A DNA stretch of 64,000 bases from Clitopilus passeckerianus (taxonomy: Eukaryota > Basidiomycota > Agaricomycetes > Agaricales > Entolomataceae). Below, piece after piece: positions 35,240 through 53,793 of the stretch. How positions within the stretch are numbered: the stretch's first letter is position 1; every line of letters starts with the position of its first letter. The stretch is from assembly GCA_944990035.1 (NCBI GenBank), contig CALYLX010000043.1:62001-126000 (forward strand). The letters run 5' to 3'. The translations under genes were made by a program, and so were the position numbers. The notes beneath the pieces are model-generated. The model was not told the DNA's origin. It saw nothing but the letters and a program-made list of their open reading frames with translations, and did no database searches.

Positions 35240-37113
35240 TATCCTGACTGGCTAGTCATGTTTAGACGTCCAGCATCAGATGCTGACCGCCCACGTGCTA
35301 TGACATTTGCGCATAGGCATCTTGCAGGCATGCAGCCTGCATTTCGCACTGACCTCGCCAACCACAATGATGTATTGGTCACTACACTGTATGGGAGCAC
35401 AGGTGCTCAAATACACTTCGCCAATGTCTACTCTAGCCCAGGGGATGGTACTGCCATTCGCTGGTTGTGTGACAATGCTCCACGTCTCCCAAGCATGCTT
35501 TGCATGGCAGGGGACTTCAACTGCAAGTCGTCAGTCTGGGATCCGGACTATGACTCTACAAATCATGTTGCAACTGAGCTATGTGATGTTGCGCTCGACC
35601 TGGGTTTGGAGGTTAGTGTTCTACCAGAACGCACTCCTACTCACTTCCCACATGCTGGCAGCCTTAGGCCGTCAGTCATTGATCTATTCTTCCTCCCTGT
35701 GGGTCGCACTGCAGGGACTTCACATAGCGTGGTCACAGAGTGGAAAGGACCCTCTGACCACGCTCCGTATCCAGCCTGTGCAGCTGGCTGCTGAGCGCAC
35801 CACTCTGCCCAAGGGCAGTGAGCAAGAGGAAGAGTTCCTGAAGGAACTGTCCTCTTCTTTGCGAGCATTAGACACAACCACTCTCACAACAGCAATTCGC
35901 TACAATGGTGAACCCTGCAATTCTCTTGAGTTGCTTTGGGCCGCTCTTGACTCAACATCCAACTCGGCATCTGACCGCCCTGTTGATCCCTCTGCTCGAC
36001 GACATGCCTCAGTCTCCTCCGCGCGAGTGGTGGGACTTTGGTGTCAACGAACTCAGAGAAGAACTAGCGAAGTGTTCAAACACTTCTGCTCCAGGTCCTG
36101 ATCACCTTACATGGTATCAGCTCAAGTCCTTGGTTGCTGACGCTGTCATTGCAACCAAATTCGTGGAGATCGCTAATGCCTGCCTTCGGGTGGGTCACTG
36201 GCCCTCTCACTTCAAGGAGTTGCGCTCTGCCATTGTTCCCAAGCCTGGCAAACTGCACTACTCAACTCCCAAGATGTTCCGCCCTATTGTGTTGCTCAAC
36301 ACGCTGGGGAAACTCTTTGAGAAGATGCTTGCAAACCGAATGCAGTTTGAAGCGCAGAAATTCGGCGTGTTCCACCCCAATCAGTTTGGAGGTGTGCGCC
36401 AACACTCTACTGAGGATGCGGGTGTTTATCTCACTCACATCGTCAAAGCCGGTTGGGCTAGAGGGTTGAAGACAAGCGTGGTCGCTTTTGACCTTGCTCA
36501 GTTCTTCCCCTCTCTCAACCATGACATGCTGCTACGCATACTGCGCAGACTGGGCTTTGCGCCGGAAGTCTGCAACTTCTTTGCGTCTTACCTTGTTGGG
36601 AGACACACATCCTACAGCTGGAACGGCGAAGAGTCCAGCAAGTATTCTGCAGATGTTGGCGTTGGTCAAGGATCTGCTTTATCCCCTCTCCTCTCTGCGC
36701 TCTATTTGGTGCCGGGGATGAGGCTGTTTGAACGCAGGATTGCTCCTGGCGTTACAACACTCATGTCGTATGTGGATGATGGCTCGCTCATCGTTCAGTC
36801 GCCATCCTTTGGGGAGAACATCACCCTACTCCAACAAGCATACGCTGTCATCACAGAGCTTGTTACTGCACTCGGCCTCGTCCTGGAACATGATAAGACA
36901 GAGGTCTTCCACTTCTCTCGCAAGCACAATGATGTCAATCCTGCCATTGACTTGGGCTTTGCTCCACACACTGGCAACTCGCCACTTCAACCCAAGAGCG
37001 TTTGGCGCTACTTGGGCTTCTACTTTGACCGGTCGCTATCTTTCAGCCACCATGTCAAGTATTACTCCACCAAGGCTCTGACCACTGTCAAGGCAATGAT
37101 CATGCTTGGTAAC
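35240..37113 (+). pseudogene. LINE ORF2, 5' part (endonuclease and RT), interrupted
   Basis: The endonuclease lacks its first ~60 residues but keeps CMAGDFNCKSSVWD, LPERTPTHFPHAG, VIDLFFLPVGR and SDHAP. A deletion near 35766 and another near 35895 remove the linker to RT. The RT is open in one frame from 35905: APGPDHLTWYQLKSL, RPIVLLNTLGKLFEKM, VAFDLAQFFPSLNHD, GQGSALSPLLSALYL and intact catalytic YVDDGSL, then SVWRYLGFYFDRSLSF. It breaks at MIMLGN (37113), where chromovirus A inserted, and continues at 48743. Confidence 0.87.
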
Positions 37114-37664
37114 TGTCACGACCTCACCACGCCCTACGCCCAGCAAAGCCAACTCGACAGCCACGAGACTCGATTACATAAGCTCCAAACCCCCCGAAGA
37201 CCGGCAACACCACCGAACGGCTCAATAACCAGAGTTATCTCGCCCGCAGCAAGCTCGCAGCACCTCGCAGTAACACGAGTCATTCACACCTAGTCATTTC
37301 CACTCATCTTTACCTTAGATATACATATATAAACCCCCTAAAAACATCTTAGACAAGTATCCTTGATATTCTTACTTTTGACCCATACTTCTTGCTTTCC
37401 TCTCTTATCGCTCTCGTATCTCTCATCTCTAACTCATTGTATATCGCGTGTACCACGTATAACGAGCAATACAAACCCTTAGACGCTCAAATACAAGTCC
37501 TACGCCAGTTGACTCCCTCCGGTCGTCAACCCCCGAACCATCAGTGCGCCATCACGCGCCTTTGATCCCATCAAACCCCCGCCTCCCGCCGTACTTTTCA
37601 AGTTCGCCTAGTGGTTACTCGACATCCTAGCATCCGTATAGACTGGTCTAAACGGGTCCTAACA
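37114..37664 (+). repeat. Chromovirus A 5' LTR
   Basis: 551 bp, TG...CA ends, with a TATA-like TATACATATATAAA at about 37320-37332. The same sequence is at 48192-48742. It contains two CCCCCGA heptamers. Confidence 0.95.
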
Positions 37665-37693
37665 TAATATCAAGGATCTCACCACCCCCGAAC

Positions 37694-40390
37694 ATGACGA
37701 GTACCCAGACGTACACGCGACCGCCACCGGTGGCAAACGCACAAATTACTGACCGACACGGACGAATGGTACCACCCCCTACAACAAATTACTACGGAAT
37801 ATCCGCAGGACCCTCAGCACCCAGCGCATTCCCAATCACACCCATGGGAAATAGACAAACCCAACACCAAGCACAAGAGTCATTCTCGCAGTCCATGTTA
37901 CCCTTGGATAATCAGTCTCAAAGAAGCAGCCGAGCATCTGCAGGGTCCCGAAATGAAACTGCACGGCCCCAAGTGCCGAACCCTCAGGGCCCACCCCCCG
38001 CCCCAGCACCCCCGACACTAATGGGACCACCACTCAGCGGAGCGCGTACAGGCACTTACCAATATGACCAATCTGTGCGTCATCTCCAAGACGACGCTGT
38101 CGGATATTTTGCCGCCTATGCCAGAAATATGCTCCTCGACATCGGAGCGCCCGACGACGACCCTGGCTTCCGCAGGACAGACCGCATGTGGATAATTGAA
38201 TTAAGAAACACGCTGGTCAGATACCGGAACCAAACCCTACCTGCAGGTGTTGGAGAGTTAATCCGAGCTCGAAACCTAGAACCTCAGCTTCAAGAGTTCT
38301 ACGAAAGAACCTGGGGACTCGATTATGGAAACCCAAACATATCATCTGTCTCCAACGCCATGGCCAGAAACCACAACCGGCAACCTGTCGTTGCGTCAAC
38401 CCCCAGAAGGCTGAACAACCCTGACTTCCTAGGAGGAATTTCTCGATTACTCCCACGATACGATCGAGAAACGGCGATCAGGGACAGTGTAATGACAAAC
38501 CAGAACGGAACCGAGAGGCACGAATTCTGGGGAGTCCCAGTCAGTTCCTACGCCCCCCGAGAATCCGGTTTCCAATTCCCGTCACAACACGCAGCACCTC
38601 GGAACCAGAACTCTGAACGACCCCCTACTCGCTCCCCAAGCCTTGAATACATAACCGACCCAGGGATCCAGCAAGTGGCCCAACCTGTCGCCACGGCAGG
38701 ACCCTTACGCACCCTCTCAACACCAAGGGTTCCATCAAGAATCCGATCAGAACCACCAGGTCCAACACTGCCACAACCCAATCAGCATTTCGCGAACCCT
38801 CGGCAAAGAGACCTAAACCCCCGCGAAAGGACCTTTTTCCAGGAATATGAGCCACCTCAGCCCGGAAGAGCGAGTCAACAGCACCATGCCAACCAAACGA
38901 ACGGTTTTCCCTACCCGCAAACCCGACTTGACCACCCAGAGAACGAACGGGATCAATACCCGTTTGCCAATCGGATCGGCGGGCCAACGTCCCCAAGGAA
39001 TGACGGCTGGTTCCCCTTAGGAGAAAACGGTGATCCGCCCGGAGGAAACCCTCCTTATGGATACCCGGACGGCGGTGGACCACCAGGGAACTTCGGAGGG
39101 CCTCCAGGAGGAGGACCTAACGGAAATGGACCACCAGAAGGATGGACTCGTCACGGAGGACCGCCAGGAGGCTGGCCGCCCTATGGTGGACCTCCAGGTG
39201 GAGGACCCTCAGGAGGTGACACCCCCGACGAATAGGGAAGGGCCAACGAGCCTTCTAGAGGGCCACCCAACCGAAGGGCCCCAGCGGGGAACGTAGGCAG
39301 TGATTTCGAAGTTGAAAACAGACAAATACAACAAACAAATGAGGATCGAACTCTCCTCAATTTGGAATCGAAATTGGATGTGAGAAAACCTGAGGCTTTC
39401 ACAGGAAAAGACCCCCGAAAGTGGAGGGCATTCATCACAGAATGTCTTATCAACTTCCACGCAAAGCCTACCACCTTCCAACTAGAGAAGCATCGAGTTT
39501 CCTTCGCTATATCATACCTCAAGGACACCGCCCAGAATCACCTCATCCACCTACTCACGCGAAGTCGGGACCATCCAGCCCTATGCGAGTGGGACGCTTT
39601 CGAGGAAGAATTTGGAAGAATGTTTGGACCGGCTAATAGGAAACTAGAAGCCGAATCCGCAATGTGACAAATGTTCATGGGGCACGAGGATCGATTCTCC
39701 CAATGGATTGTGAAATTCGAAGCTGAAGCATTTGAGACGGACTGGGGAGAGGGAGCATTGCGCTCTGAACTGAAAAGATCCTTGCCCAAACGAATCCGCG
39801 ACGTCCTCATCTTGATACCACACACCGAGACCTACTAGAATCTCCGCCAATTGGCCGCCCGGATTGATCAGAAACACTGGGAAGAAGTGGCGGAGCAAAG
39901 CGCTCGTAACTACTGGAGAAGCGGCTATGAAAGAGGACCAACCCAACACGGTCGATCGGGAGGGAACTACCAGAACTACAAAAACTCGACCCCTACAGGG
40001 GACCCCCGAACGAAGTTTACCAACTCGGATAATCCCCAAAACCGCCGCCTCAACGCTATCGAGGAAGAAGAAGACGTAACCCCCGAAAACGACACTTCCC
40101 TCCAAGCCGTAGCCCCTAGAAGAGAACCCCCCTGGACCAAAGTCCCCCCTGAAGAAAAGGAAAGACGACGAAGGGAAGGACTCTGTATGCTCTGCGGACA
40201 AAAGGGTCACTACGTACAAGATTGTCCCAAAGCACGCAAACGTAATGTCATGGGACGTGCCGTCTTCACCCTTGGAGGAGAGGATTTCGACTTCCAAGGA
40301 GAATTTGACGAGAACGAAGAACCTGACCTTGAAGACGATGAAGGCCAGGGAAACGAACTCCCGATTCAGGAGAGAGAAGGGGAATCCTGA
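37694..40390 (+). pseudogene. Chromovirus A gag, three in-frame stops
   Basis: One reading frame of ~898 codons opens with MTSTQTYTRPPPVANAQ. Residues ~1-330 are P/Q/N/R-rich and ~440-515 are a glycine/proline repeat (GGPPG-type). A retrotransposon gag core follows (LDVRKPEAFTGKDPRKWRAF ... DAFEEEFGRMFG ... DRFSQWIVKFEAEAF), then a CCHC nucleocapsid knuckle CMLCGQKGHYVQDC near the C-terminus and an acidic tail. Stops TAG 39233, TGA 39665 and TAG 39836 interrupt it without changing frame. Each is one transition from a sense codon (CAG or CGA). Pol overlaps the end in the -1 frame. Confidence 0.88.
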
Positions 40391-43300
40391 ATCTGAACGA
40401 ACGCCCCCCGAACACTCACCTCCGGGCGATAATCTCAAAACCCTCGGAGGAACCAACAGCTACACTATCCTCTCGACACTCCCAAGCCTTCTACCTAAAG
40501 ACCACAATTACGGGACGAAACAAGGGTACCTCAGCACTAGTGGACAGTGGGGCAACAGACAACTTCATCAATGAAGGAACTGCTCGAAAATTACAATTAG
40601 TACTTGAACCCCTCGAAAAACCCATCACCCTACTCCTTTTCGATGGGGAACCCACCGGCGCAGGCGCCATCAAATTCTCCACCCGCATAGAATTCATCTT
40701 AGAAAATGGATTAAAATACGAATCCACCTTCCTGTGCACAACCCTACATCCCAATGCCGAAATCGTACTGGGTGTACCATGGCTACGACAGTCAAACCCT
40801 CAGATAAACTGGGAAGACTTAACCATGTCATTTGAACGCACTGCACGACTAGCTTCCACGATCACATTCTCAATCCCATATCATGCAGCCCGGGGGTTCA
40901 CTCCTGAACAGGGGGAGATTGAAACTACCAAAACCACCAAAACCCGAACCCCTGAACCCCCGAAACCCATAATGTCGGAAGGAACACATTCATTTCTTCT
41001 TAACACGACCCTGGCAGAACACCAAGAAGAGTTCACCACCCTCATCGATAGCGGAGCACCCTATAACTTTGCAGATCATGACTGGGCGATAGCGCTAGGG
41101 CTTAAACCTACCGAACTCAAGGAACATATTCACCTTTCCTTATTCGACGGGAAAAGCCCTACACAGATGGTCACCCATACAATCACCCTGGATCTCGTCT
41201 TTGGAGGGACAAACCACCAGAAAATCGAATTCCTAATCACCAAATTACACCCCTCAACGCCAACTATTCTGGGAATAACCTGGCTAAGGAAGGTTAACCC
41301 GAATATCGACTGGAGAAAGATGGAATTAACCTGGGGCAAACGAAGCCCCAGAGCGACAGTTGAAGACGCCCCCGACTCAGACGAACCAACCCCTAAACCC
41401 CGTATCCAACTAATAGGAGCCGCACCCTACCCACTACTACTCAAAGAGGGGCTACACGCCTATCAACTGCACATCCAACCCACCTCCGAAACCAAGCTAC
41501 AAGCTACTGACAACCCTGCCCAACCCCCAAGACCTCCGAAAACTGAAAAAGAAACACTCGACGAATTCATACCAAAGGAATACCACGAATTCGCAGACGT
41601 ATTCTCTGAGGGTGAAGCCAAGGAGTTGCCTCCACACCGACCTTACGACCACAAAATCGATCTAGAAGACGGCTCCAGTCCTCCGTTCGGGAAAGTCTAC
41701 AACATGTCCGAAGTAGAACTCAAAACACTGAAGGAATATATTGACGAAATGCTTGGGAAAGGATTCATCCGGCCCTCCTCATCATCAGCAGGCGCACCCG
41801 TCCTGTTTGCAAAGAAAAAGGACGGATCCCTACGCCTCTGCGTCGATTATCGGGGCCTCAACCGAATCACCAAGAAAAACCGATACCCAATTCCACTAAT
41901 TGGCGACCTCGTGGACCGGCTCAGCAAGGCGAAAGTTTACTCCAAAATCGACCTACGTGCGGGGTACAACAACATCCGCATCTCTCCAGGACACGAGTGG
42001 AAGACAGCCTTTCGAACAAGATACGGGTTATTCGAATATCTAGTCATGCCGTTTGGTATGACCAACTCCCCCGCAACCTTCCAATACTTCATAAACGACA
42101 TTTTCCACGATATGCACGACATTTTCGTTATCTACCTGGATGACATTCTAATATTCTCTGATAATCTGGAGGACCACCGAATACATGTATGAAAAGTACT
42201 AGAACGACTTCGGCAACATAACCTCCATGCGAAGCCCGAGAAATGTAGTTTCCACACCACCGAAGTCGAATACCTAGGGATCATCGTAACCCCCGAAGGG
42301 GTCAGCATGGACCCCTCTAAGGTCAAGGCCATTCTGGAATGGCCCGAACCCACCACCATCAAGCAACTACAATCATTCCTCGGATTTGCAAACTTCTACC
42401 GAAGATTTATCGACAACTACTCAGGGATTACCAAACGTCTAAACAAGCTTGTAGCCAAGGACGCGAAATGGGACTGGGACGACAAGTGTCAAGATTCATT
42501 TGACCTCCTCAAGAAGGCCTTCACCACCGCACCGGTCCTCCGACACTACGACCCAAAACTGCCCATAGTCCTCGAATGCGATGCCTCTGACTTCGCCATC
42601 GCGGGCATACTGTCCCAAGTCGAACCCGATAGCAAAGATCTGCGACCTGTTGCATTCTACGCCAGGACCATGTCTGACACCGAACTCAACTACGCTATCT
42701 ACGACAAGGAACTACTGGCCATAGTTGAAGGCTTTCGTCAATGGAGAGCATACCTCGAAGGCGCCCCCCACACCATCCAAGTATATTCGGACCACAACAA
42801 CCTACAGTTCTTCACCACGACCAAGCAGCTAAATCGCCGACAGGCTCGGTAGTCAGAAACTCTTGCAAACTTCGACTTCATAATCCACTACCGTCCGGGA
42901 CGGTTAGGAGCCAAACCCGACGCTCTAACCAGACGATCGGACGTCTACCCTAAGAAGACATTCGACACCAATCGGAATTCCCTCAACAACCGAATCCTCA
43001 TACCCCCGACAAGGCTCAGCGCAGCCTTGCTAATGGACGAGGAATCCCTGTTGGAGCGAATTAAGACAGCTAAAAAGGACGACTACTTCAAGGAGAAGGA
43101 GGAAGAATCCCAAACTGACCCCCGATTTTCCACCGAAAATGAAGGAGTACTACTACGAGAAGGACTCATCTACGTGCCAAACGAGGGAGATCTACGGCTA
43201 GATGTTCTAAGGCAACACTACGACCACAAACTAAGGGGACACCCTGGCATTCGGAAAACAACGCAGGTCATTAACAGGACATACTTCTGGCCAGGACTGA

Positions 43301-44532
43301 AGAAGGACGTCACAAACTACGTCCGGACCTGCCACACCTGTCAAAGAGCCAAAACCCCCCGACATAGTTTTTATGGGTTCCTGAAGACACTCCCCATCGC
43401 TGAGAGACCATGGTCATCCATATCTCTAGACCATATCACTGAGCTCCCCGAGTCCGAAGGACACAACACTATTCTGGTAATAGTCTGTCGACTCACCAAA
43501 CAGGGCATCTTTGTACCCTGTCACTCCACCGACACAGCTAAAGACTTTGCTCAACTATTCATTCTACACGTCTTCTCCAAGCATGGACTTCCTATAGACA
43601 TAATCTCGGACCGCGGATCACTATTTGTGTCCAAGTTCTGGAAGTCACTGTGCCAGGCCTTGGACATCCGCTCGAACTTGAGCACCGCGTACCACCCGGA
43701 AACCGATGGGCAGACGGAGAGAGTCAATCAAATTCTTGAGCAATATCTTCGAATGTTCGTAAACTACCAACAGAACGACTGGAAGCCCCAACTACCCCTC
43801 GCCGAATTCACCTACAACAACACCCCCCATGCGACTACTGGAGTATCCCCCTTCTTCGCCAACAAGGGCTACCACCCCCGACTCACCATCAACCTCGATA
43901 ACATCTCGGTCCACGAAGCCCACCAAGTCGCAGAAGACCTCAAATCCCTACATGAGTATCTCAAGGGAGAAATCTGCATCGCCAACGAAGCCTATTCAAA
44001 GTTTGCCGACGCAAAAAGGCTGCCAACCCCCGAATGGAAGGAGGGAAACCTTGTCTGGCTCAACTCAAAAAATATCCGAACCAAGCGACCCACCAAGAAA
44101 CTGGACTCAAAGAAGATCGGCCCCTTCCAAATCATCGAACGGATAGGATCCCATGCGTACCGATTGAAACTACCCCCGTCCATGAAATTACTTCACAATG
44201 TATTCCACGTTAACTTGCTGGAGAAACAAGCCGAAGAGAAATTCCCCAACCGGCGACAGCCACCGCCTCCTCCAATTGAGGTTGAAGGAGAACTCGAATA
44301 CGAAGTGGAAACAATATTGGATTCAAAAATCGAAGGGAAAACCGTCTATTATTTGGTGCGATGGAAAGGCTATGGACCCGAACATGATACTCTAGAGACA
44401 TTCAACGAACTACGGAACTCGATAGGTCTACTCCTGGCCTTCCATGATGCATTCCCGGATGCACCAAAGGATAACAGAGTAACAGGGCTAAAATTCACGA
44501 AGAGACAACGGACAAAAAACCCCCGAAATTAA
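40391..44532 (+). pseudogene. Chromovirus A pol with duplicated protease and chromodomain
   Basis: The frame is open across the gag stop in the -1 phase, implying Gag-Pol by -1 frameshift. Order: aspartic protease domain 1 (ALVDSGATDNF ... IVLGVPWLRQSNPQINW), protease-like domain 2 (TLIDSGAPYNF ... ILGITWLRKVNPNIDW), RT (SKIDLRAGYNNIRI, VIYLDDILIF), RNase H (LECDASDFAIAG, VYSDHNNLQF), integrase (zinc site HPGIRK...CHTCQRAK; SLDHITELP; ISDRGSLF; YHPETDGQTERVNQ) and C-terminal chromodomain (EYEVETILDSK ... YLVRWKGYG). Stops: TGA at 42190 in RT and TAG at 42850 in RNase H, each consistent with one transition. Confidence 0.92.
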
Positions 44533-44535
44533 GAT

Positions 44536-45360
44536 CTACTGCTGGACTCCCTCCATGGCATTCATGAGACGAAATCCATCATCACGGTCCCCCCGAACAT
44601 CAAGCCTCTCGAAGATAATACGAGCATGGTTTCCCAAGCGTAAAGCAATATCAGAGGAGAGGGACAACAATGAACGGCGAAGAAGGACCTGACAACCGAA
44701 AACAATGTCATAGACCTTCTCAAGGCGACGACCCTCCTCTGTCTGATCCTCGGGAGGGGGACGGGCTCCAGTTCCGACAACAAGGAGGGAACGAAGGATC
44801 TCCTCAGAGAAACTGACGTCGCTACGAAACCGCTGGTAACTGCGAGCCAGGACTGGAAGAAGGAAGCAAAAGAAAATCGTCAGGAAACCCCTGAAACAAG
44901 GAATTGAAGACCACGCACGCAAACTCTCGTTTTCTAGAGCAAGTAGACGCCCCTCAAGCTCGAGACGCTCGTCCTGACCCTCCGAAATAACGCCGTCCTT
45001 CTCCTGAATAACCTCGTGTTGAGTCTCCCCATGAGAACGAAGTTCGCGAATAGTGTCCTCGGCCTCATTCAGCTGATGGCGAAGGAAAACGGTCTGCTCC
45101 TGCACCTCTTGAAGCTGGCGATAATATTTGTTGGAACGGGCGACGACAGCCCCATAGTCGAAACGAGGAGAAGCCGGAGAAGCGTACTCTTCACGGTCCT
45201 CATGACCTCCGACGAGCATATCCTCGTCAACGAAGAAGGCAGCAAGACCCCCATTCTGGGACGCCCCGGCGCGAGAGCCAAAGGTCGAGGCCTTCGGAGT
45301 AGGGCTAGCCTCTGGAGAGGAAATAATTTCGATGCTGGAGGACGAAATTGGCACGGACAT
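44536..45360 (-). CDS. Antisense gene B inside chromovirus A
   Basis: ATG at 45360, stop at 44536-44538, four bases from the pol stop and on the opposite strand. The N-terminus is serine-rich (MSVPISSSSIEIISSPEAS). A strongly predicted coiled coil lies at about residues 80-150 (RQLQEVQEQTVFLRHQLNEA ... ERLELEGRLLALENESL). A leucine/arginine-rich C-terminal half follows. A spliceosomal intron fits at 44853-44918 (GTGCGT ... CTGAC ... CCAG, 66 nt). Removing it keeps frame and replaces a hydrophobic stretch. No known domain recognised. The intron can persist in a retroelement because the sense genomic RNA does not contain it in spliceable orientation. Confidence 0.68.
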   Translation of the reverse strand: MSVPISSSSIEIISSPEASPTPKASTFGSRAGASQNGGLAAFFVDEDMLVGGHEDREEYASPASPRFDYGAVVARSNKYYRQLQEVQEQTVFLRHQLNEAEDTIRELRSHGETQHEVIQEKDGVISEGQDERLELEGRLLALENESLRAWSSIPCFRGFLTIFFCFLLPVLARSYQRFRSDVSFSEEILRSLLVVGTGARPPPEDQTEEGRRLEKVYDIVFGCQVLLRRSLLSLSSDIALRLGNHARIIFERLDVRGDRDDGFRLMNAMEGVQQ

Positions 45361-45659
45361 GGATAAAAAGAAATTGGTGTTGTTGGGAGGATGGGACGCA
45401 ATGCAGTCATATTTATATGACGAGGAAAAACCTCAATGCAGGAGGGAACTTGGAAAATTTCGAGAAAAACCACAGCACGAGGCCACCCAACACACCAGGC
45501 CAATGCGAGGACCCCCCGGAAAGCACACACCCAACTCGAGGTCAACCTAACGACCAGGCGACAGGACAACGACAATCTCGATTAAGGCAAAAAGGAAGTC
45601 ATAAAATCAAATACAAGTACAGGCGACGTATCAAAAATCAGGGCCCGAAGACTCAACCC

Positions 45660-48145
45660 TTACTGACGGACAAACTTCTGCAAAGCCGAGTCCAACTGAT
45701 CGCGAACCTCGCCAAGACGCTTAAGTTCACCGCTCCGAGAAGCCTGGGACGCCGCCAGGGACGGGGAGAAAGAACCCAAAACATCCCGCGCCTCCGAAAC
45801 CTCGCAGTATAGGGTCCTAGAGACAGTACGAAGATCTAGAACGAACGCGGCATGAGTATTTCCAGAAGGAGAAAACCCCCGAAAACACAAACCCACCGGC
45901 GAACTTAGCGGCTACCGCCTCGTAATCGGCTTCCAAAGTACCACATGCCTCCCGATAATGATCTCTCTCCGCCTGGAGCGTCACCTCGTTATCCTGCAGC
46001 ATCACAAGGCGAGAAGCGACTTCGTCAGGAACATGCTGCTGAGCCCTTGTCAGCTCGTCGCGAAGCCCATCCCGCTCCTGTAGCAACTGATTCATATCAC
46101 GCCGAAGATTCTCCACGAGCTCCGCTGAGGCCATTTCCGAACGCCTAGAGTCAGATAGAGACGACCGAAGACGACGGCCTACGCAAAAAGTAAACTGGGA
46201 ATCGTACGAGAAACTCGAAGGCAACTACGCACAAGTCAACTGAGAGGCCACCAGATCTTGCTGAACGCGATCGCGGGCAGCCTGGGCCTTCATCATCTCC
46301 ACATGCTCATCCTTTCCATAGAGAATGGTCTCCGACGCAAGGTCAAGAGCCCGCTGGGACTTCTCCCAATGCTCCTTCAAATTGTCATACGCACCGTCTA
46401 GATCATCATAATCGCTGATTCGATCACGAAGCTCGGCCTTCAAACGCGAAATCTCGAGGTCCCGAAGGTCCTTCTCCACCGAAGGACCAGCGCTATCGTC
46501 ACCCCAGACATCTAGAGTCCCAAGAAACTCGACGCCAGAGTCACCACGTCCGCCAGAGCCGTCATCCCCACGGGAGGACCTCTCCTCATCAACTGCATCA
46601 CCCTCCTCAACATCCATTTCCCCGAAAGATCCCCCATCCTCATCCTCAACCTCCATTGATTCGCCAACGACAGGACTTGCACCCGAGTCATCCTGCATGA
46701 CCACCTCTATAGGCGAAAACCCCCGACCTTCAGAAGCAAGCGAGGGCGATTGCTCCAAAGCACCTGGGACCTTTTTCGGTGGAAGGCGAATAGTCAACTA
46801 AAAAGAACCAGGCGTCAGCCAAACGAAAGAAGAAAGAAACCACCAACGCACCTTGGAAGGACTCGCCATAACCCCCGACGTTCCGCCTGAAAAGGGAACC
46901 CGGCTCCCCACATAACCTACGACCGCATGATCCTTCACCTCCAGGGTACCGTTGAACGCGTAACACCCCCGAATCACAGCAGGACGGATAACAGGGGTCC
47001 CTTCATCGATATGACGGTAATACGTTGCCCAAAACGACGCCTCCTCCCGCGAACAAGGCTTCAACTCGTCCAAAACCGTCAAAAGGCAGAAGGCGGAGTA
47101 AGGAGTATAGTCCAGACGGAGGGCCAGATATGCCGCGGCGTAACGAAGAGCGATGGGGCAAGAACGCTTGCCATTGTGACAAAAACGACATGCTATGGCC
47201 GCCGAGCTAGATTTGACGCAAGAGGTCCGAACGCGCGCATTCTGACACCACTTACAAGAACGCTGCTGGAAGGATAAGCTGGGAAGTAAAAACAGAAGAA
47301 CCTCGCTCACGAAGGAAGGAAGTGCAAAGAACTTATCCCTAAAAGCCTTCTTCACCGCCAAGTAAGTGTTATGGGATGTCCGATTCTTCAAGCCAGTGGC
47401 TTTCAGAATCGGTACCCACGATATGGGACCAGGAATAGGACCAGGATCGCCAAGATACACCCGAAGCCGCACGTTTGCACATTCCATCTCGACCACGGAA
47501 GTAGGAGGCGGGCCCACCGCGGTCGCAAACCAGTCGTCGATAGCCGGATCCTCCAAAACCTCGGAATCTCCATCACTATTCTCGTTCGAAGAACCCCCTG
47601 AACCACTCTCCGACCCCCCCAGGACCCTCACGTTTAGACTCCCCACCCCCCGAACCGTCATCCCCAACCATAGGATCTCCCTCCAACGCGACCTCAACCC
47701 CCGCAACTCCGGCAGAACTTGACTCCTGCACCACCGAATTCGACAACTCCACCGATCGCAACACTGGATCCTCGAGGAACTCCAGATAATTGCGATCCTC
47801 CCGACTCCAACGCTCAACTAAAGACTCGAAATCACGAGGATTACGAGGGACAAGCATCCGAGGAGAAGCCACTCCACCATCCGCCCGAGACTTGGATCGC
47901 GTAAGCTGATTCCTCACGAGCCAACGAGTGCATCGTTCCAAAGCCTCCGTCCAGACGACATCGCGGAAACTCTTCATATCGGCACTATTCATGTCAATCC
48001 GCTGCATCACAGGCCCCCAACCTAGCAAAACCAGACGGAAGACGTCCTCTTTGCTTATTCGATCATGCAGACCATCGTCAAGAGGCCGCCAAACAAGAGG
48101 ATTCTTCTCCACCCACTTTCGATAGGTTTCCAGAATTAAGATCAT
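45660..48145 (-). CDS. Antisense gene A inside chromovirus A, four exons
   Basis: ATG at 48145 lies 47 bp inside the 3' LTR. Exons 48145-46852, 46797-46233, 46178-45893 and 45816-45660. Introns 46798-46851 (GTGCGT...CTGAC...TTTAG), 46179-46232 (GTGCGT...CGTAG) and 45817-45892 (GTTTGT...TCTAG) join in consistent phases. The protein starts MILILETYRKWVEKN. It has a middle Cys cluster (CKWCQNARVRTSC then CRFCHNGKRSC), an acidic stretch and a C-terminal coiled coil (DMNQLLQERDGLRDELTRAQ ... FVRQ). One lesion: a frame slip at the C7 run 47614-47620. The Cys pairs suggest zinc binding. Function unknown. Confidence 0.68.
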
Positions 48146-48181
48146 CGAAGAACACTTCTAGAGGGTTAGAAGAGCGTAAAT

Positions 48182-48189
48182 GAGGGGGT
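48182..48189 (+). other. Candidate polypurine tract of chromovirus A
   Basis: GAGGGGGT lies directly upstream of the 3' LTR start at 48192, the usual site for plus-strand priming. Confidence 0.55.
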
Positions 48190-48191
48190 AA

Positions 48192-48742
48192 TGTCACGAC
48201 CTCACCACGCCCTACGCCCAGCAAAGCCAACTCGACAGCCACGAGACTCGATTACATAAGCTCCAAACCCCCCGAAGACCGGCAACACCACCGAACGGCT
48301 CAATAACCAGAGTTATCTCGCCCGCAGCAAGCTCGCAGCACCTCGCAGTAACACGAGTCATTCACACCTAGTCATTTCCACTCATCTTTACCTTAGATAT
48401 ACATATATAAACCCCCTAAAAACATCTTAGACAAGTATCCTTGATATTCTTACTTTTGACCCATACTTCTTGCTTTCCTCTCTTATCGCTCTCGTATCTC
48501 TCATCTCTAACTCATTGTATATCGCGTGTACCACGTATAACGAGCAATACAAACCCTTAGACGCTCAAATACAAGTCCTACGCCAGTTGACTCCCTCCGG
48601 TCGTCAACCCCCGAACCATCAGTGCGCCATCACGCGCCTTTGATCCCATCAAACCCCCGCCTCCCGCCGTACTTTTCAAGTTCGCCTAGTGGTTACTCGA
48701 CATCCTAGCATCCGTATAGACTGGTCTAAACGGGTCCTAACA
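48192..48742 (+). repeat. Chromovirus A 3' LTR
   Basis: Same 551 bp as 37114-37664. Followed by the target duplication GTAAC and the resuming LINE ORF2. The antisense gene A begins just inside it, so any antisense promoter would lie in this LTR or the 46 bp next to it. Confidence 0.95.
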
Positions 48743-50445
48743 GTAACTCATCAAGGGGTATTACCCCTATGCAGAAGCGGCTGCTCTACCGTGCATGCGT
48801 CCTTCCGGTCGCTACGTATGGTGTGGGCCTCTGGTTCTACAAAGGTGCAAGGTGTAAGACTGCTATGTCACACTTGCGCACTATGCAACACAAGGCTGCT
48901 AGGTGGATAACTGGTGCCTTTCGCACATCGCCAGGTGGGGGGACCAAGTCTATTGCTGGTCTCCCCCCCATTCATCTGCACATCAGGAAACTGGTTGAAC
49001 GTGGCCAGGCGTGTATTGGCACCCTGATTGGCAACCACCCTACGCTGTCGCTCATTAGTGACAAGCACCAGCTGTACAAAGGAACAATGCGTCTTCCTTC
49101 GTCTCTCTCCAACTTGTCGCGACGCGTGCGCGGCAACTTGCTCTCTACAGTTGTGAACTCTGATGCACATGCTGTGCGTGTCTCTGAGCCTCCCAACCCT
49201 GTCCATGGAGAAGTGGTCCCAGGCCTTCATCTGTTGGATACACACTCTGGTAGGGTTACACTTGACACCACCATTGCAGCATCTAAGGATGCCCTTGATT
49301 CTCGTCGCATCCACTTGGATGCGATTTGTGCTGACGCAGATCTGTCTGACACCACAGTGTTGGTGGCAGCTGACGCGTCTGTTCCCAAAAGCAGGAAGCG
49401 CCAAGCGGTTGCTGCTTGCTCCCTCCTTCATGGCGCCTTTGGCCCAGAAGAATACACTATGGCATCAGGCAGAGTCCTCTCTGATGATGCCGAACTCGCA
49501 GCCATTGACTTGTCTATAAGCAAGGCTGTTCTCCGCAACAACTGTGTCAAAATAGTTGTGCTCTCAGACTCGTCCAAAGCCATCCGGTTGGCTTTGGACC
49601 CGTCTCTCCACTCTGGGCAAGGACACTCGCTGTCCATTTGCTCCAAACTACGTGCTTGGTTCTCAGGCGATGCTGACAGGCACGTCCACTTTGTTCATGT
49701 CCCTTCAAAACTCAACTGGGAGATCCACCACCGTGCTCACTTGGCGGCCACTGGCTTGCGGGTGGGTGCTGGCTACCAACCCCGGACGTCCCTTGGGTAT
49801 GCCCGGAAACGCGCTGTGGATAGAATGCTGCATGAGTAGACTTGTCTACTGCGGCAGCCTTCTTTCTCTGGCAACAACTTCTTGCGCCTCACACACAAAG
49901 GTGCCTCCCTAAGGCCCACACACATCAAAGGTGGACCTTGGTTACGTCGCGTTGGCTCCTCCAATGCGCATACCGCGCGCCTTACACGTGCAGTTCTGGG
50001 TCATGCACCCATAGGGGAATTCCGCGCACGCTTCAACCTGGGTGGAGAGACAGCGTGTGCATGCAACTGGCGCATACTGGAAACGAGGGGTCACATCCTT
50101 CACCAGTGCGCGCACTTCCAACGACGGCCCAACCAGCGCTTGCGCTGGGAGCTGTCGTCTTTCTTGTTCTTCCTCGAGAACAACCCTGCCACTTTTGCGT
50201 TTCCTTCGCAACAGCCTCCACCGCCGTTTCCCAAAGCCAGGAAGACGCGGCGACGTCGGCCACCTGATAAGGCCCCCACACGCCTCCGCGATGCCCTCCC
50301 TGCTGTGGGGGGCCACCGCCGACAAATGCCTGTAACAGGCTCCACTGCACCGCCGCGCCCAGACGACCTTGTCTGGGTGCCGGGTGCACACCAATTTGTT
50401 CGCAGAGAACAGGCCGAAGTGTCTGGCATGGTTTTCCATGCATAG
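48743..50445 (+). pseudogene. LINE ORF2, 3' part (RNase H, zinc region)
   Basis: Continuation of the ORF2 at 35240-37113 after chromovirus A. It encodes the RT end (GITPMQKRLLYRACVLPVAT), linker, RNase H (LVAADASVPKSRK, DDAELAAID, VVLSDSSKA, KLNWEIHHRAH) and the C-terminal zinc region (CACNWRILETRGHILHQCAHF), ending MVFHA and TAG at 50443. One stop, TAG at 49837-49839, replaces tryptophan of the HEW block. The 3' UTR continues to 50634, then is cut about 100 bp before the usual tail. Confidence 0.87.
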
Positions 50446-50635
50446 GCGTCAGTGCTCCATCCTTCATATAGTGGCGAGCCTGGCCTCCAGGGTTCTCGCT
50501 GCTTCTGCGGGGTGTTGCGCACTACCATACTCGTTGAGAGATTCATCCTCGGGGGCCACCCTAGCTTGCTCTTTGGTGGACCTCGTATTCAGTGTAGTTC
50601 ACTCGACGAACACGGTTCTTTACTTACGTTAGTAT

Positions 50636-53357
50636 ATGTATATGCTTCAAGGGTCTTCTTGGCGTTCTGGAGGTTTCTCACAGGTTCCCATGAGTTCTCC
50701 GATGTCGGATATCCTTTCCACTTGATCTTGTAAAGGATCTTCCCACGATGTCGTTTGTGTGCGACAATTTCTTCCACTTCCCATTCTTCTTCTCGATTGA
50801 TGAGGTCAGGTGGCGGTTCTAGGAAATTGGGCCCATGTGTCTCGGTTTCCTTGTATGGTGTGAGGAGGGTGGCATGGAACACAGGGTGAATTTTCCATGC
50901 TCGGGGTAGTTCTAATCTGTAGGTCAGCGGACCTAGAACTTCTTTGATCGTGAAGGGGCCTTCTCGTCGTGGCGTGAACTTCTTTGAGTAGTATGCCAGT
51001 TTTAGGTTAGTTGTTTCCAACCAAACCTTCTGTCCTTGTTCAAATGGTTTGAAGTTACTTCGGACACGTTCGGCCATCTTTCGTCTCGCAAGTTCATGGG
51101 CGGCCGCAGCTTCGTCTCGTGCTTGTTGGAGTTCTTTCATTCGGGTTTCCGCAGCAGGGACATTGGTCTTCTGATATGGAAGGGGAATAGCGCGTGGTTC
51201 TGCTCCGTTCATTAGGTAGAATGGAGTTTGTGCGGTGACGGCATGAACACGTTTGTTATGGGCGAATTCCATTAGGGGAATTAGTTCTAGCCATTTCTCG
51301 GGGTTGTTGGCGCAGAATAGTCGGAGATAAGCGCCAATGTCTTGGTTGACGCGTTCGGTTTCTCCATCTGCTTGTGGGTGATATGCGGTTGTCAGGGAAA
51401 GCTTGATTCCTAGGAGTCGTCCTAGTTCTTGGAATACTTTGGATGCGAATTGTGGACCTCTATCGGATATCAGTTTGTCAGGAAGTCCGAATCTTCTGTA
51501 GACAGCATCCAGGTAGTTGTTGGCAGTGCCTAGGGCGTCAATGGTCTTCTTGCAAGGGATCAAAATTACCCCCTTACTAAGGCCATGGTCTACCACGACC
51601 ATGAGTGAGTCGTAACCGTTAACCTCAGGAAGATCAGTGATGAAATCTGTAGAGGCAAGTTCGAAGGGTCGTGTGGCGGTAAATTTGACTGGGTTCAGGG
51701 GAGGTGCCGTGGGGTGTGTATTGACCTTCATCTGTTGGCAAGGGGCACATCCATCGACGTAGGATTTGACAGTTCCAAACATTCTGGGCCACCAGTAGTG
51801 TTCGGAAATTAACTCCATCGTCTTGAATGCTCCTGGGTGCCCGGCCATAGGTGCGTCATGATACTTCTGTATGAGGCTTCGTCGTAGGGTAGCGTCATTA
51901 GGGACGTAGCATCGCCCTCGGAAGAAGAGGAGAGAGTCCTCTACTTTCCAGTCAGCTAAAGCCGATTTGATGGGGGTAGAGTGGTTCTTCAGGTGTCGTA
52001 TTGCTTCTGTGAAGAATTCGTCTTTCATCATGTGTTCAGCAAATTCCGCCTTAAGTTCGGTGTCAATTGTTCGGATGAAGAGTTTATCAGGTAGCATGGT
52101 GATGTCCTCGTTGTCGGTGTCATGGTCTAGAATGTGATCTGCTTGTCGGGATAGTTCGTCAGATTGGACCATCTGAGTTCCTGGTACATGGACTAGGTTT
52201 AGGTCATATTGGGAGAGGAGTAAACTCCATCGTGCTTGTCGTGGGCTAAGTTTCTGTGGCGTTCGGTAGTAGGTTAGGTTCTTGTGGTCGGAGAATACCG
52301 TGACAGGGTGGGCTGATCCTTGTAGATAGTGTCGCCAAGTTTCCAGTGCTCTGACTATAGCGAGTAATTCCCTGTCGTAGATTTCATAGTTCCGTTCGGT
52401 TGGGGTGAAGGAGTGAGAGATGTATCCACAAGGGTGCCAGTCGTTATTTTCGTCTCGTTGGCGTAGCACTGCTCCTGTGGCCCACTTGGATGCATCACAT
52501 TCAATGGTGAATGGTTTTGTTGGATCGGGCATCGTGAGTACGGGTGTCTCCGCGAACCTTTTCTTCAGGGCTTCAAATGCTTCTTCTTGTTCCTTTCCCC
52601 ATGTAAAGGGCCGATCTTTCTTGGTGAGATCGTTCAGGGGTCGGGCTAGTTCCGCATATTTCCCTATGAACCTTTGGTAGAAGTTGCCAAATCCCAAAAA
52701 GGACCGAACTTCTTTTATGGTGGTCGGGGTTGGCCATTTCTTTATCCCGTCGAGTTTAGTCGGGTCCATGTGGATCTTGTCTGGCGATATGATCATTCCA
52801 AGGAATTCGACTTCTGTTACGTTGAATTTGCATTTCTCAGCTTTGAGGAACAGGTTGTGTTCCATCAGCCTTTGGAGTACCCGTTTGGTGCGCTTCTCAT
52901 GTTCTCTTGGGTCTTTAGAGAAGAGTAACATGTCATCCATGTAGATGATTAACCATCCTTCATCGATCATGTCTCTGAAGATGTGGTTCATCATTGCTTG
53001 AAACGTGGCTGGGGAGTTGCATAGTCCAAAGAACATGACGGTGGGTTCAAATAAGCCTCGATTTGTTTTGAAGGCTGCTTTCCACTCGTCTCCTTCTTTG
53101 ATCCGGACATTATGATATCCCCATCGGATGTCCAGCTTTGTGAAAATCTTTGCTCCTCTGAGTTTGTCGAGTAGGTCGCTGACTAGTGGTAAGGGGTAGG
53201 CATTCTTGACAGTTCCACTGTTGAGATATCGGTAATCTTGGCAGGGTCGTAGTGCGTTTGCTTCTTTCTTTGCTACAAAGAAGAAGGGTGATGCTTGAGG
53301 TGATTTCGAGGGTCGGATGTATCCTTTTCGTAAGTTTTCTTCGAGAAATTTGTCCAT
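50636..53357 (-). CDS. Chromovirus B pol: RT, RNase H, integrase, chromodomain
   Basis: About 905 codons are open without a stop. RT: RPCQDYRYLNSGTVKNAYPL, FTKLDIRWGYHNVRI, IIYMDDMLLF. RNase H: FTIECDASKWATGAVLRQ, DRELLAIV, VFSDHKNLTY. Integrase: zinc site (HPGAFKTMELISEHYWW ... CAPCQQMK), STDFITDLP, DRGPQFASKVFQ, AYHPQADGETERVNQ. Chromodomain: WEVEEIVAHKRHRGK, YKIKWKGYPTSENSWEP. The chromodomain C-terminus is lost at 50636. The start is set by the first Met after a degraded stretch (53358-53790) with stops in all frames. The RT and integrase cores look intact, but the element lacks its 3' LTR. Confidence 0.9.
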
Positions 53358-53793
53358 TTCGGCTTGCTCCTTTGGATTGAGAGGGTAGACCTTGCAGTCT
53401 TTCGGAACAAAGTCTGGTTTGAGATCAATGGCGTGATCCCAAGGCCGAGATGGGGGAATCGTTCTGATGCTTCTTTCTCAAAGACTTTCTTGAATTCGTG
53501 GTATTCGGGGGAATGAGGTCTTCGAGTTCTTGACCTCTTCGGTTTTCTGATGTTCTAGGGTCTGGGAGATGGACGTCTTGGCGCGAATTCAGACGTTCTG
53601 GGTCGGGACGATCGCAGTGATCCTCTCTCGGGTGATTCGGGAGATATTTGCAGCTCGGATTCTTCTGATTTCTGGTTCTCGATGTTCATTCGTCAATGGG
53701 GAATTGGCTCATTTGAATATCCCCATCACTGGTTCTCCTTTCACATAGGCAATAACCAGGTCTTGTTCGTCATTGGGTTCTTCTAAGGGTGTT

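Follow-up and report, generated by a model that had tools for sequence, protein, structure and literature searches.

Within the window, i.e., the whole 64,000-nt stretch of Clitopilus passeckerianus DNA that was analysed, positions 37114-48742 form one complete LTR retrotransposon, which is probably a self-priming chromodomain element carrying two accessory genes antisense to gag-pol that most likely act as regulators in trans. As far as the DNA itself can establish them, the gene structures and the intact insertion are secure, and a second copy likewise retains the gene order, the reading frames and two of the introns. The element is a clean insertion with a target duplication on both sides, and its gag-pol part and ends are as follows:

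37109..37113, unstranded: left target site duplication, GTAAC
37114..37664, plus strand: 5′ LTR, TGT...ACA, 551 bp
37666..37677, plus strand: putative self-priming primer site, 12 nt, complement of LTR positions 37359-37370
37694..40390, plus strand: gag frame, containing a zinc knuckle and three in-frame stops (39233, 39665 and 39836)
40342..44532, plus strand: pol frame encoding protease, RT, integrase and chromodomain, with two in-frame stops (42190 and 42850)
48178..48191, plus strand: polypurine tract, as read from the sequence
48192..48742, plus strand: 3′ LTR, 551 bp, identical to the 5′ LTR; presumed to hold the antisense promoter of gene A
48743..48747, unstranded: right target site duplication, GTAAC

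The host site of the element is a LINE. When the flanks (36814-37113 and 48748-49047) are joined without the element, LINE copies run continuously across the join at 95-97% identity in every one of the 40 places that were scored out of 179 candidates, and 38 of these 40 cover the full 600 bases of the joined flanks. The LINE around the element is found at 95-97% identity in at least 40 places of the genome. LTRs, primer site, polypurine tract and target duplication, the structural hallmarks of a Ty3/gypsy element, are all present, and pol has protease, RT and integrase in this order with a chromodomain at the integrase end, as in a Ty3/gypsy chromovirus. Its Pfam matches are Asp_protease, RVT_1, Integrase_H2C2, rve (below cut-off), SH3_Tf2-1 and Chromo, confirming the chromodomain gypsy element of the preliminary description. 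The nearest other pol family in the genome, on contig C126, is 48% identical to the element's pol. Tf1-type elements are self-priming, their primer site pairing with the 5′ end of their own RNA, and Tf1 is not known to have antisense genes; the element has a chromodomain like Tf1, and its putative primer site would pair with its own RNA if this starts where presumed. The complement of the primer site in the LTR begins 33 nt past the start of TATATAAA (37326), which is the expected distance, and none of 5000 base-shuffled LTRs reproduces this 12-nt complement.

The 3.66 kb between the pol stop and the 3′ LTR holds two minus-strand genes, A and B, so that a coding region opposite to gag-pol lies between pol and the 3′ LTR, which is the location that defines an aORF-3R. 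Only 3 nt separate the gene B stop from that of pol, and 46 bp lie between the gene A ATG and the 3′ LTR. The long minus-strand frames described earlier exist, and the limits given for them, 44536 and 48145, coincide exactly with the gene B stop and the gene A ATG. The features of this module are the following:

47656..48145, minus strand: gene A exon 1, ATG at 48145
47598..47655, minus strand: gene A join 1, uncertain, 58 nt, with a non-consensus donor inside G runs
46852..47597, minus strand: gene A exon 2, with cluster CX2CX8CX9CX2CX6C
46798..46851, minus strand: gene A intron 2, 54 nt, lacking a counterpart in the second copy
46233..46797, minus strand: gene A exon 3, acidic
46179..46232, minus strand: gene A intron 3, 54 nt; 55 nt at the same place and phase in the second copy
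45897..46178, minus strand: gene A exon 4, coiled coil
45836..45896, minus strand: gene A intron 4, 61 nt; 56 nt at the same place and phase in the second copy
45660..45835, minus strand: gene A exon 5 with stop, homologous in the second copy
45411..45417, minus strand: putative TATA-like box 5′ of gene B, read from the sequence
44919..45360, minus strand: gene B exon 1, with a coiled coil at residues 77-120 and 133-161; start codon at 45360
44853..44918, minus strand: gene B intron, 66 nt, donor lost in the second copy
44536..44852, minus strand: gene B exon 2 with stop

Gene A has 752 codons in five modelled exons (ATG at 48145, stop at 45660), with a six-Cys cluster and coiled coils, and gene B has 252 codons in two exons (45360 to 44536), with coiled coils and its own TATA-like box; both products are acidic (pI 4.9). 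The coiled coils first described were borne out when a crude score was compared with that of shuffled sequence, and the Cys cluster is likewise present. Four introns follow the consensus, with donors GTGCGT or GTGGGT and YAG acceptors; three of them (54, 54 and 61 nt) are in gene A and one (66 nt) is in gene B. The GT-AG introns proposed in the preliminary description therefore stand, with their size range corrected from 54-76 nt to 54-66 nt, and the CTGAC-like branch sites seen there are found at ordinary spacing in two of the four consensus introns and not in the other two. At join 1 of gene A, many alternative joins also preserve the frame. The gene B intron is a stop-free multiple of three, so that the frame is open unspliced too. 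The claim of two minus-strand genes whose introns are kept through retrotransposition accordingly holds, with introns in gene A at least. The intron lengths resemble those of the host, in which gaps of ~50-53 nt separate exon matches in five chaperonin examples. The chaperonin-domain matches are paired near-equally across the G000 contigs (C40/C130, C110/C16 and C140/C60), as if two haplotypes or duplicated contigs had been assembled.

The open frames were compared with chance by shuffles that preserve dinucleotides and hence the strand bias. On the antisense strand of 44533-48191, the longest open stretches are 339, 298, 193 and 190 codons, against at most 161 on the sense strand; in 1000 dinucleotide shuffles, the longest stretch averages 149 codons, 339 is reached once, and the sum of the top four never exceeds 718 codons (1020 in the element). 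When only consensus introns (GTRNGT...YAG, 48-80 nt) are allowed, the longest spliced open chain of the whole region is 1988 nt with three introns, compared with 485 nt on the sense strand and a shuffle maximum of 845 nt (0/300). The same 1988 nt stands against a shuffle maximum of 902 nt (0/300) for the gene A region alone, and the gene B stretch alone gives 896 nt against 866 nt (0/300), a narrower margin. The sense-strand frames of the same DNA are at chance level.

The only other copy in the genome with internal sequence is a decayed one on contig C30, with DNA identities to the window copy of 83% in the gag part, 73% from gag to RT, 78% over the integrase end and gene B, and 62% at the gene A end. 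C-to-T and G-to-A changes predominate in three of the four C30 alignments, and about 30-50% of the CpG sites are altered by changes of this type between the two copies. Gene B and the C-terminus of gene A are kept in C30, in the same order and direction as in the window. Gene B is present there with a 10-nt gap and stops; residues 559-752 of gene A are present with two stops, and a weak match extends from residue 440. Introns 3 and 4 of gene A retain GT and AG at unchanged place and phase (55 and 56 nt), and splicing them yields one reading through to the homologous stop. Two of the three examinable introns are thereby kept, the exception being the gene B intron, of which the donor is lost. 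The indels observed in the coding sequence of gene A have lengths divisible by three, and the intron lengths vary freely. The N-terminal half of gene A (exons 1-2 with the Cys cluster) was not found in C30, where a LINE occupies its place.

Selection was assessed by placing the substitutions between the two copies at random within context classes and counting the amino-acid changes. The observed/expected ratio is 0.65-0.86 for the gag and pol pieces, 0.83 for gene B (z −3.4) and 0.91 for gene A (z −2.4), and of the six frames the true one gives the lowest value for gene A as well as for gene B. One mirror frame of gene B, which contains 13 stops, comes close (z −2.9); this would be expected if it uses the same wobble positions as the true frame, but the frame test is not fully separate. 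By exon, the deficit is clear in exon 1 of gene B (P 0.0007), slight in exon 4 of gene A (P 0.03) and not significant in exon 2 of gene B (P 0.13), exon 5 of gene A (P 0.35) and the end of exon 3 of gene A (P 0.13). Uncorrected pN/pS is 0.33 for gene B (95% 0.25-0.44), 0.60 for gene A (0.47-0.77) and 0.21-0.39 for the gag and pol pieces. With transversions alone, gene B is constrained (ratio 0.23, P 0.006) and the tested part of gene A is not (ratio 1.13, P 0.75). Judged by these comparisons, gene B shows purifying selection, and the testable part of gene A does so only weakly. The weak signal of gene A in substitutions and transversions indicates that its tested part evolves fast, and what speaks for gene A in the alignment is its introns, shared stop and in-frame indels rather than its substitutions. 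Conservation among copies, which had been suggested as a check on the antisense genes, is found for gene B and for the frame and two introns of gene A, in the single second copy that exists, and only weakly for gene A substitutions.

Synonymous divergence varies along the element from 0.31 to 0.71. Between window positions 38627-46127 and L008/L009, synonymous and transversion divergence is high in RT, integrase and gene A but low in gene B and in the first part of gag, as though the segments had separate histories, and this unevenness may point to recombination between element lineages.

The strand composition also links the antisense genes to the element. The sense strand carries more A than T: the skew is +0.23 to +0.31 for gag, pol and each antisense gene and +0.47 for the intergenic sequence, and the bias peaks in the antisense introns, where A is 0.40 and T 0.10, and at third positions, where T is 0.08-0.09. 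C outnumbers G in gag, in pol and in gene A; gene B is the exception, with a skew of −0.03 overall and +0.04 at third positions. A similar A bias is seen in other gypsy families of this genome; host third positions are C-rich in a small sample of five chaperonin-domain stretches (1337 codons). The A-over-T bias shared with the element suggests a long residence of the genes, and replication, inside the retroelement.

Antisense genes of this kind are already known, also in a fungal chromovirus. Zhao et al. in 2011 reportedly described an antisense gene, brtn, in the Boty-like retrotransposons of Botrytis cinerea. A Boty-like element is presented as a fungal gypsy element with a chromodomain in the accessible part of PMC4227169, brtn appears also in that of PMC8365987 and PMC5987419, and PMC7264820 lists Boty among elements with antisense ORFs between pol and the 3′ LTR. 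By these descriptions, Boty is likewise a fungal chromodomain gypsy element with an antisense gene, of which one is named, in contrast to two here. The earlier remark that antisense ORFs are reported in plant Ty3/gypsy elements is correct, but has to be widened to fungi. In plants, Grande (gene23), RIRE2 and PvRetro13 carry an antisense ORF at the same place, and gene23 of Grande is transcribed from its own promoter and encodes a nuclear protein (PMC7264820); several introns are not stated for them in the text available. In the Retand lineage, the region between pol and the 3′ LTR spans 2.9-6.6 kb and antisense ORFs are the rule, with TRP28 proteins that are predicted to bind DNA and in some cases give coiled-coil-type (Smc) matches (PMC11963269). 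The layout of Retand is the same, but Retand is a non-chromovirus with a TRP28 domain, and Pfam scans gave no match to this domain (PF04195) in A or B. The word "intron" is absent from the main text of PMC11963269, and no description of several introns in such antisense genes was found in open-access text. As far as open-access text goes, the two genes, the several introns and the conservation of introns between copies appear to be new.

In the proposed mechanism, host RNA polymerase II would transcribe both genes, starting in the 3′ LTR for gene A and at the gene's own TATA box for gene B, and the host would splice the antisense messages. The preliminary description had proposed a separate antisense transcription unit probably started in the 3′ LTR; given the TATA-like box of gene B, one common unit is not required. 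HTLV-1, a deltaretrovirus, offers a model for the action of gene A from the 3′ LTR in HBZ, a spliced antisense gene that acts as a regulator in trans; HTLV-1 is an animal retrovirus, and homology is not claimed. An antisense promoter in the 3′ LTR is described for HTLV in the accessible text of PMC7264820. Since the introns read CT...AC on the sense strand, the sense genomic RNA would stay unspliced over the module and the introns would survive reverse transcription. The two acidic coiled-coil proteins would most likely act jointly in trans on element transcription, nuclear import or silencing, with the Cys cluster of gene A as a probable zinc-bound contact; by analogy to Grande and Retand, a regulatory role is the most likely one for A and B.

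The Zn(II)2Cys6 binuclear cluster has the pattern CX2CX6CX5-12CX2CX6-8C, from which the gene A cluster differs in one spacing, and Pfam scans gave no Zn_clus match up to E 10. The single-sequence model of gene A exon 2 (mean pLDDT 37) is too poor to judge the fold, and that of gene B (mean pLDDT 50) shows long helices. Weak Pfam matches (best E 0.004, all below cut-off) and PDB matches (E 0.3) were dismissed, so that neither the Pfam scans nor the single-sequence models back a function by domain or fold.

It is conceivable, if unlikely, that the antisense introns serve as a strand lock, whereby gene A could be made only from host-spliced nuclear antisense transcripts of integrated copies and never from the genomic RNA in particles, and the two proteins would form a self-contained trans-regulator that reads out the integrated copies and limits or licenses further jumps, i.e., a spliced antisense copy-number control. 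Rather unlikely is a role of the RNA itself, in which the proteins would be relics or secondary and the antisense RNA, pairing with the 3′ genomic RNA, would feed silencing or copy-number control. Such control is discussed for these elements in the available text of PMC7264820, and both the fast evolution of the tested part of gene A and the few copies (one complete, one decayed and four LTR-only places) would suit it; however, gene B is constrained at the protein level in its own frame, and both antisense frames are open in the window copy, whereas gag and pol are not.

This last point concerns the five in-frame stops in gag and pol of the window copy, which exist despite identical LTRs. No stop is found at the C30 places matching the three gag stops, and the pol stops fall in a part absent from C30. 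Either the stops arose with or after the last jump, or the copy was mobilised by proteins made elsewhere. With its stop-bearing gag and pol, the window copy may depend on proteins from elsewhere. The stop-free state of the antisense genes is weak evidence, the probability that five random stops all miss them being ~0.16 by arithmetic on the frame lengths.

We consider it improbable that A and B are host genes recently captured in reverse by one element and carried as passengers without a role. LTR elements are known to capture genes, according to the accessible part of PMC7264820, and the introns have the host length noted above, yet the diverged C30 copy already has gene B and part of gene A, no host paralogue of A or B was found in the genome itself, and the composition matches the element's strand and not host third positions (in the sample of 1337 codons). 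An unrelated transposon nested with its own genes between pol and the 3′ LTR is very unlikely; nested elements abound in both the window and C30, but terminal repeats were sought around the module and not found (the sole inverted pairs are two of 16 nt that look like chance), the gaps to the pol stop and the LTR leave no room for transposon ends, and gene B is at the same place in both copies. Chance open frames, which a T-poor sense strand would favour by making stops rarer on both strands, are largely refuted and hardly credible, since no bias-keeping shuffle reached the spliced chains (with the small margin for gene B alone), the sense-strand frames stay at chance level, and the frames and introns recur in C30.

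The reading as an element with two antisense trans regulators bears on a wider question, as the function of antisense extra genes in LTR retrotransposons is called unknown in the text available from PMC7264820 and PMC11963269. Two genes with conserved introns make this function testable: a spliced minus-strand read is impossible from DNA or genomic RNA, and true antisense messages are therefore distinguishable. The element also indicates that intron-bearing genes can persist in a retrotransposon when they face the opposite way.

In its own genome, the module is present in both copies with internal sequence; at four more LTR places, three full-length and one truncated, no internal sequence was found in 1.5 kb flanks. 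No relative of A or B was found behind five related pols, over ~1.5 kb each on C156, C37, C66 and C110 and over 7 kb on C126, and exons 1-2 of gene A with the Cys cluster had no counterpart anywhere searched. Neither spliced gene A nor its exon-2 frame nor gene B gave a match at E ≤1 in protein searches, which says little as these were run without a control query. Viral contigs matched neither the gene A exon-2 frame nor pol, so that this collection provides no test. Antisense frames behind the C126 pol were considered and rejected, as the longest turned out to be a third ORF, in sense direction, that belongs to an adjacent, abundant gypsy family. In that family, a sense third ORF of ~309-317 codons with two Cys/His knuckle-like motifs lies directly behind pol; 150 matches were scored of 356 candidates (e.g., L046:996-1949, minus strand), its places include C150:82429-82938, C157:467144-467653 and C118:205261-205767, and a related pol lies in the window at 50589-53477 (minus strand).
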